Shown: positions 222-22,742 of the stretch, one piece after another
How the letters are laid out: each line of letters starts with the position of its first letter
Position numbering within the stretch: the first letter of the stretch is position 1
Origin: an uncultured Ruminococcus sp.
Lineage (GTDB): Bacteria > Bacillota > Clostridia > Oscillospirales > Ruminococcaceae
Assembly: GCA_902786975.1 (NCBI GenBank)
Contig: CADAES010000021.1
Location: 1 to 39,317 of the forward strand
Direction of reading: 5' to 3'
DNA: 39,317 bases
Made by a program: the position numbers and the translations under genes
Notes under the pieces: model-generated
The model's database searches: none
What the model was told of the DNA's origin: nothing
Seen by the model: only the letters and a program-made list of their open reading frames with translations

Positions 222-263
222 CTTCTCTTTTCTCTTACCTCTTACCTCTTATCTCTTACCTCT
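222..263 (-). repeat. Six tandem heptamers (AGAGRWA-like) across a stop codon
   Basis: Read on the minus strand, positions 263 to 222 are six consecutive 7-mers: AGAGGTA, AGAGATA, AGAGGTA, AGAGGTA, AGAGAAA, AGAGAAG. The array covers the last four sense codons and the stop of the ATPase gene and continues downstream. Seven is not a multiple of three, so gain or loss of one unit in the coding part would change the C-terminus. Confidence 0.7.
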
Positions 264-1322
264 AAAAGCTATTTCCCCGGAAATGCTTTCGCATACTCTG
301 TCAAGCCCGTCAAAGTCCATTGCTTTGATATAATAGCTTTCAAGCTCGTCGTGCTTTGCTTTTGCCTGCTTCATAGTTTTGGCGGTCAGCTCTGAAAGCT
401 GTCTGATAAGCGATGCGTTGGCTGTGAAAAGCCCTCGGTGCTCCTTGAGCGCTTCACGGTCGTAGAAGCGGGACATATTTATACTCCCGGCGTTTCTGAC
501 AGTGAGCCTGTTAAGAGGCGCAGAGGTTATCAGCGCAGTGCCCGCACCGTCTATAAGCAGATGTTCATAAACGGTGTCCTCAAATATCAGATACGGTGAC
601 ACGCTGACATCATAGCCCTTTCGCACCGCCTGCTCTGCAACGAGGCTCAGCAGTCTGCCTGCGGCACAGAATCGGTCGTCACGCAGACAATAGATACTGT
701 CAAATCTGTCGAGCGTTTCTGTAAAGGTCATATATCCGTACTGCGTCATAGCGCTGAGCTGTCTTGTTGAAACTGACGCCTCGCTGCTGCGCTTTCTGCC
801 GAGTATCTTCCTGCACAGTCGCTGTGCGAAAGCTTCGAGCTTTTCTGTGTCAAGGCAATATGATCCGAGTGAAAAGGTATCCTCGCAGATACGCCCAAGT
901 GCCTTTGCGCTGTTTGAGGCATCAAGGAGAAGCTGTTTGTTGCTGTCGGAAGCCTTTATTATCCTATCGCTGTTTTTCGCAAGCATATTCTTATCCCAGT
1001 AAAATCCGAGGTCAATTATCTTCTGACAGACGCCCGGGTACTTGGGGTCAAAAACGTGAGGTGCTGTTCCGTCTATTATCACTGCTTTGGACGAGTGCAG
1101 GACGACCGCATCAAGAGAATCGGGGTCGGACGAACAGAAATACCTTGTGACATCCTCAGTGTTTGCGAACCTTTCGGCTATGCGCTTCATCAGCGTAGAT
1201 TTGCCCGTGCCTGCGCCGCCTTTTAAAATGTAAGTAAAGTAGTCTTTGCTGTTGACATATTTCCCGAGATCAGTGAAAAAACCGTTCGGCGTTACGCCGC
1301 CGAGAAAGAACTTATCAGACAT
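249..1322 (-). CDS. P-loop ATPase, PRK06851-like family
   Basis: A 357-residue cytoplasmic nucleotide-binding protein of unknown cellular role. A Walker A motif GGAGTGKST lies near residue 35, after the N-terminal segment MSDKFFLGGVTPNGF. Sequence and length resemble the PRK06851-type ATPases of Firmicutes, which have been given no firm function. A frame extends upstream to 1391, but the start at 1322 is preferred: AGGAGG sits 7 nt before it (1330-1335), and the longer version would run into the conserved structured element at 1350-1505. The same element precedes isocitrate dehydrogenase at 22743, so the two genes may share post-transcriptional control. The C-terminal codons lie in a heptamer repeat. 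Family assignment is by recognition of overall sequence and is moderately sure. Confidence 0.75.
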   Translation of the reverse strand: MSDKFFLGGVTPNGFFTDLGKYVNSKDYFTYILKGGAGTGKSTLMKRIAERFANTEDVTRYFCSSDPDSLDAVVLHSSKAVIIDGTAPHVFDPKYPGVCQKIIDLGFYWDKNMLAKNSDRIIKASDSNKQLLLDASNSAKALGRICEDTFSLGSYCLDTEKLEAFAQRLCRKILGRKRSSEASVSTRQLSAMTQYGYMTFTETLDRFDSIYCLRDDRFCAAGRLLSLVAEQAVRKGYDVSVSPYLIFEDTVYEHLLIDGAGTALITSAPLNRLTVRNAGSINMSRFYDREALKEHRGLFTANASLIRQLSELTAKTMKQAKAKHDELESYYIKAMDFDGLDRVCESISGEIAFRGKR

Positions 1323-1349: not shown

Positions 1350-1505
1350 AATAAGGGGCATCGCCCCGTCATTCAAGCCACGACAAGCCAAGCTTCGCTT
1401 GCTGCAGCGTCAGCCGCTCAGGTTTCGGCGGGTAGACTCATTACCACCGCCGAAAGACTAAGATGACCGCCGCCTAAAAAGCGTGGGTCATCGGTCGTGG
1501 TTATT
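1350..1505 (-). promoter_or_regulatory. Structured leader element, copy A (upstream of the ATPase gene)
   Basis: On the minus strand this 156-nt element folds as follows. An outer pair AATAA (1505-1501) matches TTATT (1354-1350). The closing stem CCACGAC (1500-1494) pairs with GTCGTGG (1384-1378). Hairpin 1 is GATGACC (1492-1486) with GGTCATC (1468-1462). Hairpin 2 is CTTAG-TC-TTTCGGCGG with CCGCCGAAA-C-CTGAG (1462-1417). An extra CAAGC-GAA-GCTTG hairpin is specific to this copy. A linker CTTGAATGAC leads to the hairpin GGGGC-GAT-GCCCC (1367-1355). The AGGAGG of the ATPase gene follows 14 nt later. Copy B lies at 22581-22719. Whether it acts as an RNA switch or is a folded mobile repeat is not decided by sequence alone. 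Confidence 0.65.
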
Positions 1506-21688: not shown

Positions 21689-22561
21689 ATGAAAGATTCT
21701 TACGACCCGCTGGACTGGAACAAGGGCGGCACGTCAGGAGGCAGCGTAAAACAGTATTCGTCCGCAGATTACGACAACTTTGCCAAAAATCCGACATACC
21801 GCAGTGATGCGCTCGGTGCCGACGAGTTCCAGGGAGACTTTCAGTCAGGCGCTGCGCAGCAAGCCGAGAGTTTCACTCAGGCTGACTACGACCGCTATGC
21901 ACAGAACCCGACCTACCGAAGCGACTACTATGAGGGCGCTCCTGCCGATGACGGCGCTTATCAGCAGGACTACTATCAGGACGGCTATTATCAGGACGGT
22001 CAGCAGGACTACTATCAGGACGGCTATTATCAGGACAACAGCTATCAGGATGCCTACGTACAGCAGGACAGCACGGGTGCGAACAGCTATCAGACCTACG
22101 GACAGGCTCAGCCCACCAAGTATTCGCAGGAGGACTATGACAACATGGCTAAAAACCCGTCATATCTGAGCGAGAATAACCCTAACAGGATGGGCGACGA
22201 CGAGTTTCATAATATGATACTCAAGCAGAAAAAGAGAGAGTTCTGGCGTGACCAGAGGGATAATCTCCTTATCAGAGGCTCTTTCAGCGCTCGTTCTGCC
22301 GACAGTGTGGACATAAGCAAGGATTCGCTTCTGTATATCCTCTCGCTCGGCTTCGGTGCGGCTCTGGCAAGGCTTCTCAGTCTTCCGTTTTGGGTGTATC
22401 CCATTTTTGCAGCAGGCATCGGACTTGCCGTGACCGCCTTCAAAGCTTTCATAATCGACAGCGAGGGCAAGGAGGACGCATTGAAAAGGTGCATCACACC
22501 GGGAGTAATACTGGGTATCGCTATAGGTCTTTCGGTATACATGAAAAGCAAGGGATTCTGA
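21689..22561 (+). CDS. Tyr/Gln/Asp-rich repeat protein with C-terminal membrane segments, unknown function
   Basis: Not recognised as a known family. The 290-residue protein has a long hydrophilic N-terminal half, poor in hydrophobic residues and rich in Tyr, Gln, Asp and Gly. Three copies of a 17-residue motif, roughly (S/T)xxDYDxxAxNPxYxS(D/E), lie near residues 24-40, 62-78 and 145-161. Between the second and third copies are short YYQDG-type repeats. The C-terminal part has about three hydrophobic helices (about 215-235, 238-260 and 270-285), so the repeat region probably hangs from the membrane. It sits 41 nt after aconitase and upstream of icd. A disordered, self-associating or protein-binding segment is inferred from composition only. 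Confidence 0.7.
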   Translation: MKDSYDPLDWNKGGTSGGSVKQYSSADYDNFAKNPTYRSDALGADEFQGDFQSGAAQQAESFTQADYDRYAQNPTYRSDYYEGAPADDGAYQQDYYQDGYYQDGQQDYYQDGYYQDNSYQDAYVQQDSTGANSYQTYGQAQPTKYSQEDYDNMAKNPSYLSENNPNRMGDDEFHNMILKQKKREFWRDQRDNLLIRGSFSARSADSVDISKDSLLYILSLGFGAALARLLSLPFWVYPIFAAGIGLAVTAFKAFIIDSEGKEDALKRCITPGVILGIAIGLSVYMKSKGF

Positions 22562-22580: not shown

Positions 22581-22719
22581 AATATAACCACGACCTATGT
22601 CCCCCGCCTCTTTGGCGGCGGTCATCTTAGTCTTTCGGTGGTGAGAATAAATCTCCCACCGAAACCCTAAGTGGCTAACGCCCGGTCGTGACTTGAATGA
22701 CGGGGCGATGCCCCATATT
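22581..22719 (+). promoter_or_regulatory. Structured leader element, copy B (upstream of icd)
   Basis: The outer pair AATAT (22581-22585) matches ATATT (22715-22719). The closing stem CACGACC (22589-22595) pairs with GGTCGTG (22684-22690). Hairpin 1 is CCGCC (22604-22608) with GGCGG (22614-22618), extended by ATG-CC/GG-CAT. Hairpin 2 is CTTAG-TC-TTTCGGTGG (22626-22641) with CCACCGAAA-CC-CTAAG (22656-22671). Linker CTTGAATGAC leads to hairpin GGGGC-GAT-GCCCC (22702-22714). AGGAGG of icd follows 9 nt later. Compared with copy A at 1350-1505, the T-A pair in hairpin 2 becomes C-G and a pair in the outer stem is swapped, so pairing is kept while sequence changes. Confidence 0.68.
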
Positions 22720-22742
22720 GAATATTCGAGGAGGAAACCAAA

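Follow-up and report, generated by a model that had tools for sequence, protein, structure and literature searches.

We identified two copies of a structured repeat, here called A and B, in a window of 39,317 nucleotides (the whole stretch of DNA analysed) from an uncultured Ruminococcus sp., and both are very probably members of a family of non-autonomous mobile repeats. The repeat is of an ordinary kind, a non-autonomous mobile element, in an unusual form: it is order-wide, multi-hairpin and modular, and has a TATAA target. Copies A and B are not a regulator. The original prediction, which favoured selection on RNA folding ahead of two genes, had named a folded mobile repeat as its alternative, and it is this alternative that is supported by the orientations of the copies, their absence from sister genomes and a base-exact empty site.

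Copy A occupies positions 1347-1500 on the minus strand (154 nt; CCACGAC...TTATTGAA), upstream of an ATPase gene, and copy B occupies positions 22588-22722 on the plus strand (135 nt), before icd. The two were recovered as inverted repeats (I1, 98 nt, 80%; I2, 38 nt, 95%), with model matches of 166.3 bits over 1347-1505 and 169.2 bits over 22583-22722, respectively. Both copies had been located correctly at the outset, with ends (1505-1350, minus; 22581-22719, plus) that were wrong by 3-7 bases. In copy A, the predicted fold comprises an outer stem, P1 (5' arm 1494-1500, 3' arm 1384-1378; see the complementarity test below), hairpin 1 (1462-1492) and hairpin 2 (1418-1461), both also backed by pair counts, and hairpin 3 with an optional extra hairpin (GCAAGCGAAGCTTGG; 1386-1417). 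The right end (1347-1376), a highly conserved module, consists of TTGAATGAC, the terminal hairpin (1367-1355) and TTATTGAA. The corresponding parts of copy B, likewise assigned from the fold, are P1 (22589-22595 with 22684-22690), hairpin 1 (22597-22625), hairpin 2 (22626-22671), which holds the key pair covarying between G-C and A-T among copies, a short form of hairpin 3 (22673-22682) and the right end (22693-22722) with TTGAATGAC, the terminal hairpin (22702-22714) and ATATTGAA. The difference in hairpin 2 between GGTGG/CCACC and GGCGG/CCGCC is a real compensating one, and the CTAAG or CTGAG partner, the CTTGAATGAC linker and the GGGGC-GAT-GCCCC hairpin are as first described; the extra hairpin of copy A is also genuine, and the same hairpin was found in other copies. 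The proposed outer A/T pair did not survive, given that its left half lies outside the element and belongs to the host target, so that the swap of A-T for T-A does not count as compensating; a coupling of these left bases to the right end was rejected for the same reason.

Two genes next to the copies deserve a brief description. The gene following copy A (252-1322, minus strand), matched in 27 of the 29 genomes of the genus, encodes a P-loop protein whose matches to NTPase families are weak (NPHP3_N at 27.1 bits, over the cut-off; nSTAND_NTPase5, below it). The gene upstream of copy B encodes a protein of 290 amino acids with no Pfam match, possibly a membrane protein judging from its sequence, and contains in-frame repeats around QQDYYQDGYYQDG at positions 21946-22066.

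Of 59 sites, 47 have TATAA at the left flank of the element, 50 have ATAA and 52 have AA, and several of the non-TATAA sites are misplaced element starts. These sites were found with patterns free of the target, two tandem second copies among 61 being excluded, whereas an earlier count (46 of 54) used patterns containing TAA. The host target is AATAA for copy A (1501-1505, minus strand) and, from the flank sequence, TATAA for copy B (22583-22587, plus strand). Head-to-tail copies, in which TTATTGAA is followed directly by CCACGAC (L006, L012, L203) or by CTCACGAC (L197), have no TATAA between them, and the element is therefore bounded as C...TTATTGAA; for copy A, these bounds agree with the empty site described below. 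No terminal inverted repeat was found in the family. The target duplications that had been expected of a mobile repeat are absent, save for an ambiguous AA common to the target and the right end, with which a 2-bp AA duplication is compatible. In copies A and B, the right hairpin lies 8 nt from the tip and hairpin 1 lies 8-9 nt from the left tip, and the 3' arm of P1, complementary to the 5' arm, stops some 31 nt short of the right end. On inspection by eye, the foot of hairpin 1 lacks a conserved tetranucleotide; the right-end TTAT is complementary to the target ATAA, and variants of the two do not visibly change together, again as judged by eye.

The clearest evidence for movement is a 134-bp element in genome G022 (L203/L049), located right after TATAA, at a site that is empty in genome G008 (L055). 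The flanks align without a gap or an unaligned base (98.5% identity over 264 bases on the left, 96.5% over 257 on the right), and 60 of 60 bases are identical on each side of the element. The AAC present at both junctions leaves an ambiguity of 2-3 bases, with which a short duplication is compatible. Copy A itself splits a native hairpin, GGTCTG (1511-1506)/CAGACC (1346-1341), spanning 1341-1511 on the minus strand: the orthologous site in G022 reads GGTCTG-TTTTGGG-CAGACC, against GGTCTG-AATAA-element-CAGACC in the genome of the window (G000). The evidence from empty sites is limited to this one high-identity site plus copy A. The element is also absent from the position of copy A in G016, G021, G028 and G018, and a divergent copy in G006 (C4:78983-79117, L054), in the same intergenic region at another position, is apparently an independent insertion. 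A preference for hairpin loops as targets, as suggested by copy A, found no support, joined empty sites being no more stable than permuted sites (178 of 200 permutations were at least as stable).

Sister loci were searched with R1, a covariance model built from 10 copies, over at most 1.5 kb of flank each, leaving out the icd of G021, which a contig end truncates, as well as a second G024 gene. No copy was found at any of 27 icd loci, 14 of whose leaders were also inspected as sequence, and only one at 26 ATPase loci, namely the differently placed copy in G006. Some copies are nevertheless inherited, since L057 (G016) and L062 (G022) share the same insertion site. In G151, two identical copies lie at different places, with a median identity of 95.5% among nine copies, which suggests that movement was recent; the eleven copies compared in G000 have a median identity of 77.9%.

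The genome of the window contains 17 matches to a 23-base right-end pattern with at most 3 mismatches, against none for a control pattern, and 36 matches to R1 at E <=0.1, some of which are antisense readings of the same copies. Nineteen copies, including A and B, score at least 72 bits, and the copies in this genome include head-to-tail pairs (C38, C31), nested modules (C31, C41, C12, C4), core deletions (C9, C18) and cuts at contig ends. With the own genome counted at each level, R1 matches were found in 9 of 29 genus genomes, in 14 of 247 family genomes sampled (10 of 126 genera) and, some of them weak, in 17 of 394 order genomes sampled (13 of 169 genera, seven family labels); the family and order scans used stricter filters, with which weak matches are lost. 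The exact right-end pattern was found in 55 stretches of species genomes, in records labelled Ruminococcus, Oscillospiraceae, Clostridia and Clostridiales. Whole units measure about 135-220 bp across the family. Distant members retain TATAAC at the left, ATGTCC-CCGCC..GGCGG, TCAGTGGGG..CCCCACTGA, and TTGAATGACGGGGCnnnGCCCCTTATTGAA or near variants, with another sequence in P1, for example GGCAAG/CTTGCC. Some members (L211, L223, L227, L228 and L229) have a different right end, and L220 has both ends in a row. Spread through phages, plasmids or viral contigs finds no support in the collections searched at the sensitivity used, with no exact match of the right-end pattern in viral contigs and no BLAST match to the repeat in phage and plasmid collections. 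Among the entries listed in searches of the open-access literature, we saw no description of such repeats in Ruminococcus or Oscillospiraceae.

A second structured repeat was observed in G021 (L060:1501-1612 and L065:1501-1617, both minus strand). Its hairpins 2 and 3 are similar and its ends are different; TATAAT lies six bases ahead of its first stem, a long hairpin (GCCGATG..CATCGGG) lies on the 3' side, and no Rfam family matches it.

The fold itself is robust. When compared with dinucleotide shuffles, copies A and B reached z scores of -5.1 and -6.7, respectively, folded as RNA, and -4.9 and -7.5 folded as DNA, with none of 200 shuffles as good in each case. In an alignment of 45 copies, 89.9% of cells are paired, whereas a slid partner gives at most 49.2%, and in 24 of 36 pairs both sides have changed; shuffles predict 8.0 such pairs, and none of 500 shuffles reached 24. 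Covariation in a larger alignment, the test named in the original prediction, thus holds. The clearest covarying pair is G-C in 20 copies, A-T in 24 and C-G in one. These 45 copies, used for both the covariation and the wobble counts, were picked by eye from 100 model matches; most are full-length and of type I, and copies that were truncated or had nested modules or other ends were left out, as were various near duplicates. The P1 sequence differs between lineages while the fold persists: over 30 distinct left windows, 4 of them only 3 nt complementary, the mean longest perfect helix is 5.73, against a permuted mean of 4.38 and a highest value of 5.10 among 500 permutations. Because of this covariation and the complementarity of P1 above all permutations, we conclude that the fold is under selection at the level of the family.

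Mismatched pairs tell whether individual copies look maintained as RNA. Outside the CTTAG/CTAAG helix, the 45 copies hold 34 G-T and 35 A-C cells (68 versus 50 with the helix included), and the helix alone leans to G-T (34 versus 15). With near copies collapsed into 18 clusters, the counts are 26 G-T versus 32 A-C without this helix, 37 versus 37 with it, and 11 versus 5 in the helix alone. As a control, the acceptor stems of 23 of 26 tRNAs at the same loci, unclustered and read in the better of two registers with 4 Watson-Crick pairs required, gave 13 G-T versus 1 A-C. Since G-T and A-C are about equal overall, unlike in the tRNA stems, neither strand of a single copy looks as if it were maintained as RNA; only the CTTAG helix hints at the opposite. 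There may be active source copies that act as RNA, with which the wobble result is compatible.

These observations bear directly on the reading first proposed, a cis-regulatory RNA (riboswitch or attenuator) in the 5' UTRs of the ATPase and icd genes. Such a role would agree with the strong fold and its compensating changes, with the lean of the CTTAG helix to G-T, and with the position of both window copies ahead of a gene that has a good ribosome site; the AGGAGG noted downstream of both is real, but the gene contexts of 105 copies show that it is not a rule of the family. These 105 distinct copies (from 107, after 4 antisense matches were left out and 11 further loci added) have both neighbours sense in 34 cases, both antisense in 18, convergent in 16 and divergent in 16, with one neighbour missing from the locus in 21. 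The right-hand gene is sense in 60 and antisense in 39 of 99 copies, a mild bias also expected of a 5' UTR role. Scatter in both orientations and after genes, which had been named in advance as the mark of a mobile repeat, is what these copies display; none of the 105 lies inside a gene as called by a simple greedy ORF caller. The copies therefore do not hold the conserved 5' UTR position ahead of functionally related genes that characterises a riboswitch, nor do they show, overall, the excess of G-U over A-C that such an RNA would have. Rfam yielded nothing over the gathering threshold for copies A and B, and nothing credible when matches with E up to 10 were allowed (four matches at E 1.1-8.5, far under the cut-off), and only tRNAs at eight further loci. 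Together with the absence of the repeat ahead of the same genes in sisters and the precise insertion into an empty site, this makes a regulator extremely improbable, and we regard that reading as largely refuted: the fold and its compensating changes stand, and the regulatory role drawn from them fails. The case calls for caution, in that multi-copy folded elements can be misread as riboswitches and compensating changes can stem from a mobile element's own fold.

The interior of the mobile repeat is modular, with exchangeable hairpins, nested modules and core deletions. A hairpin-1 module, GTGTCC-GGT-GGACAC..TATGCGCAGCATA..CGACCGAGGCGACAG, is present in the element sense in copies of G000, G016 and G006 (L007, L030, L034, L070 and L071; 89-100% identical) and reversed in L157, L162, L166 and L194 (JAJQIG records, matching G151 by coordinates; 85-91%). 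It looks, from the sequences, as if a second small mobile element targeted that loop. A related module, GGTCTCC..GGAGACC, lies near hairpin 3 in G000 and G028 (L031, L032 and L052, with the L031 locus judged by eye).

Several known classes of mobile element resemble the TATAA repeat in part. REP/BIME elements form alternating arrays; the TATAA repeat is longer, multi-hairpin and found in head-to-tail pairs, and no Y1 gene was seen beside its copies. Both are extragenic palindromic repeats, those of the REP/BIME type being tied to Y1-type transposases (RAYT), as described in the cited passages of PMC2817692. In Streptococcus pneumoniae and S. suis, the BOX elements are likewise short, modular and strongly structured, with variable inner modules and mutual nesting, and are judged parasitic (cited passages of PMC3049150); according to the same passages, BOX has terminal inverted repeats and target duplications, and the TATAA repeat has neither.

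Closer parallels are found with IS200/IS605 elements, which are described as inserting 3' of a tetra- or pentanucleotide, with no terminal inverted repeats, no target duplication and subterminal hairpins (cited section of PMC7290912), and with PATEs, which carry IS605-type ends without a transposase and are known from Haloquadratum and Halanaerobium (cited sections of PMC3119063 and PMC7290912). The repeat shares with the former the insertion 3' of a pentanucleotide, the missing terminal repeats and duplications and the hairpins near its ends, and its end-to-end junctions would fit movement of that type; it differs in that no tnpA lies inside it and the inspected resident IS200 copies have other ends. 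Like PATEs, as these are portrayed in the cited sections (PMC3119063, PMC7290912), it lacks inverted terminal repeats, has near-terminal palindromes at both ends, inserts 3' of a short fixed target (4-6 bp in PATEs) without a duplication beyond the 2-bp AA ambiguity, and includes core-deleted copies and copies with other small elements within their palindromes; the nested hairpin-1 module resembles SMR-A, which inserts into PATE palindromes in Haloquadratum (PMC3119063, cited section). Unlike PATEs, it has a conserved, P1-enclosed multi-hairpin interior, it resides in hosts of the Ruminococcus/Oscillospiraceae type and not in archaea or Halanaerobium, and the loci searched contained no IS605-type transposase sharing its ends. 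A P1 stem around a multi-branch fold is not among the features of IS605 ends given in the cited sections. As no TnpA-encoding IS605-type element shares its ends, we describe the repeat as working like a PATE and do not claim membership.

We infer that an enzyme acting in trans would recognise the folded single strand (the P1-enclosed hairpins and the terminal hairpin) and would move the element as DNA, cleaving the target 3' of TATAA and the right end 3' of TTGAA, in the manner of the ends-only, IS200/IS605-derived PATEs. An influence on icd or on the ATPase gene would then be a by-product or a later exaptation, and copies directly upstream of genes, such as that before icd, could be raw material for new 5' UTR structure. 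With the ends, the target and an empty site defined, the question of the mobiliser is directly testable.

Candidate enzymes were sought in the carriers; many of these are draft genomes, so that the absence of a gene is soft evidence. Y1_Tnp had a match in 6 of 9 carriers (missing from G016, G021 and G027) and, in a second set, in 6 of 12 (missing from G254, G188, G170, G033, G443 and G539). R1 searches of Y1 loci (17 of 19 and 8 of 11) found no element at the gene ends, with L257 containing one copy (31.8 bits) some 1.3 kb away from a broken Y1 fragment. Resident IS200 copies were rejected as relatives, the inspected Y1 genes of G000, G018 and G022 having other, IS200-type ends, and a weak partial match in L089 (16.6 bits) was not accepted as an element end. 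TnpB (PF07282) was detected in 2 of 9 carriers, once over the cut-off, and IscB (RRXRR) in 2 of 12, also once over the cut-off, neither of them in G000. The IS110 transposase (PF02371) was detected in 4 of 14 carriers, G000 not among them, and in 2 of 6 genomes without R1 matches; 4 of 12 IS110 loci were searched with R1 and contained no element. TnpB, IscB and IS110 were rejected as partners, each being missing from some carriers.

For an HUH enzyme as the mobiliser, we see about an even chance. Since AA stands at both junctions, as the last two bases of the left flank at 52 of 59 sites and of the consensus right end, a cut after AA cannot be told from a crossover at AA, and a recombinase with a two-base core (a serine recombinase or an IS110-like enzyme) might act in place of an HUH transposase; the head-to-tail junctions would also fit a circle, and Y1 is missing from several carriers. 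We consider such a recombinase unlikely, though worth keeping in mind, given that the target signal of five bases exceeds a two-base core and the IS110 transposase is missing from 10 of the 14 carriers searched. The RNA-like appearance of the P1-enclosed, multi-branched fold, its persistence as the P1 sequence changes between lineages, and the TATAAT before the first stem of the related G021 repeat would suit a SINE-like element, in which a structured non-coding RNA would be copied into DNA by reverse transcription and inserted at TATAA. However, there is no target duplication, no source gene was found, and there is no overall wobble excess, although decay after insertion could mask an excess in the source gene; we hold this origin to be improbable. 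Guide RNAs of IS605 elements have a short fixed motif by the insertion and a fold that extends to the element end. The repeat is similar in both respects and might be an OMEGA guide RNA element (TnpB reRNA or IscB omega RNA) deserted by its nuclease, but the scarcity of TnpB and IscB among the carriers, their absence from G000 and the lack of an Rfam match render this highly improbable. A more far-reaching possibility, which we put forward only tentatively, is a new transposition system in Ruminococcus-like Clostridia, with a mover outside the Y1 HUH enzymes, the TnpB/IscB partners and IS110 that would recognise a P1-enclosed multi-hairpin DNA fold and target TATAA. G151, a 98% complete genome with the two identical copies and only a broken Y1 fragment, points in this direction. 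Two points speak against it: genes can be missing from draft genomes, and the copies inspected in G254 (99% complete in 7 contigs) are diverged, with no recent movement visible.

Additionally, we observed several minor relatives of the mobile repeat. Three very short copies, in L164 (3925-3966, plus strand), L217 (minus) and L177 (plus), comprise scarcely more than the right-end hairpin, those in L217 and L177 lying directly before a gene start, and Ruminococcus sp. FC2018 carries a single short copy (L160). A divergent relative of 84 bases in G000 (C7:12470-12553, plus strand; L016/L042; 30.7 bits) lies immediately upstream of a gene whose product, judged by its N-terminus, resembles a sugar-phosphate mutase.
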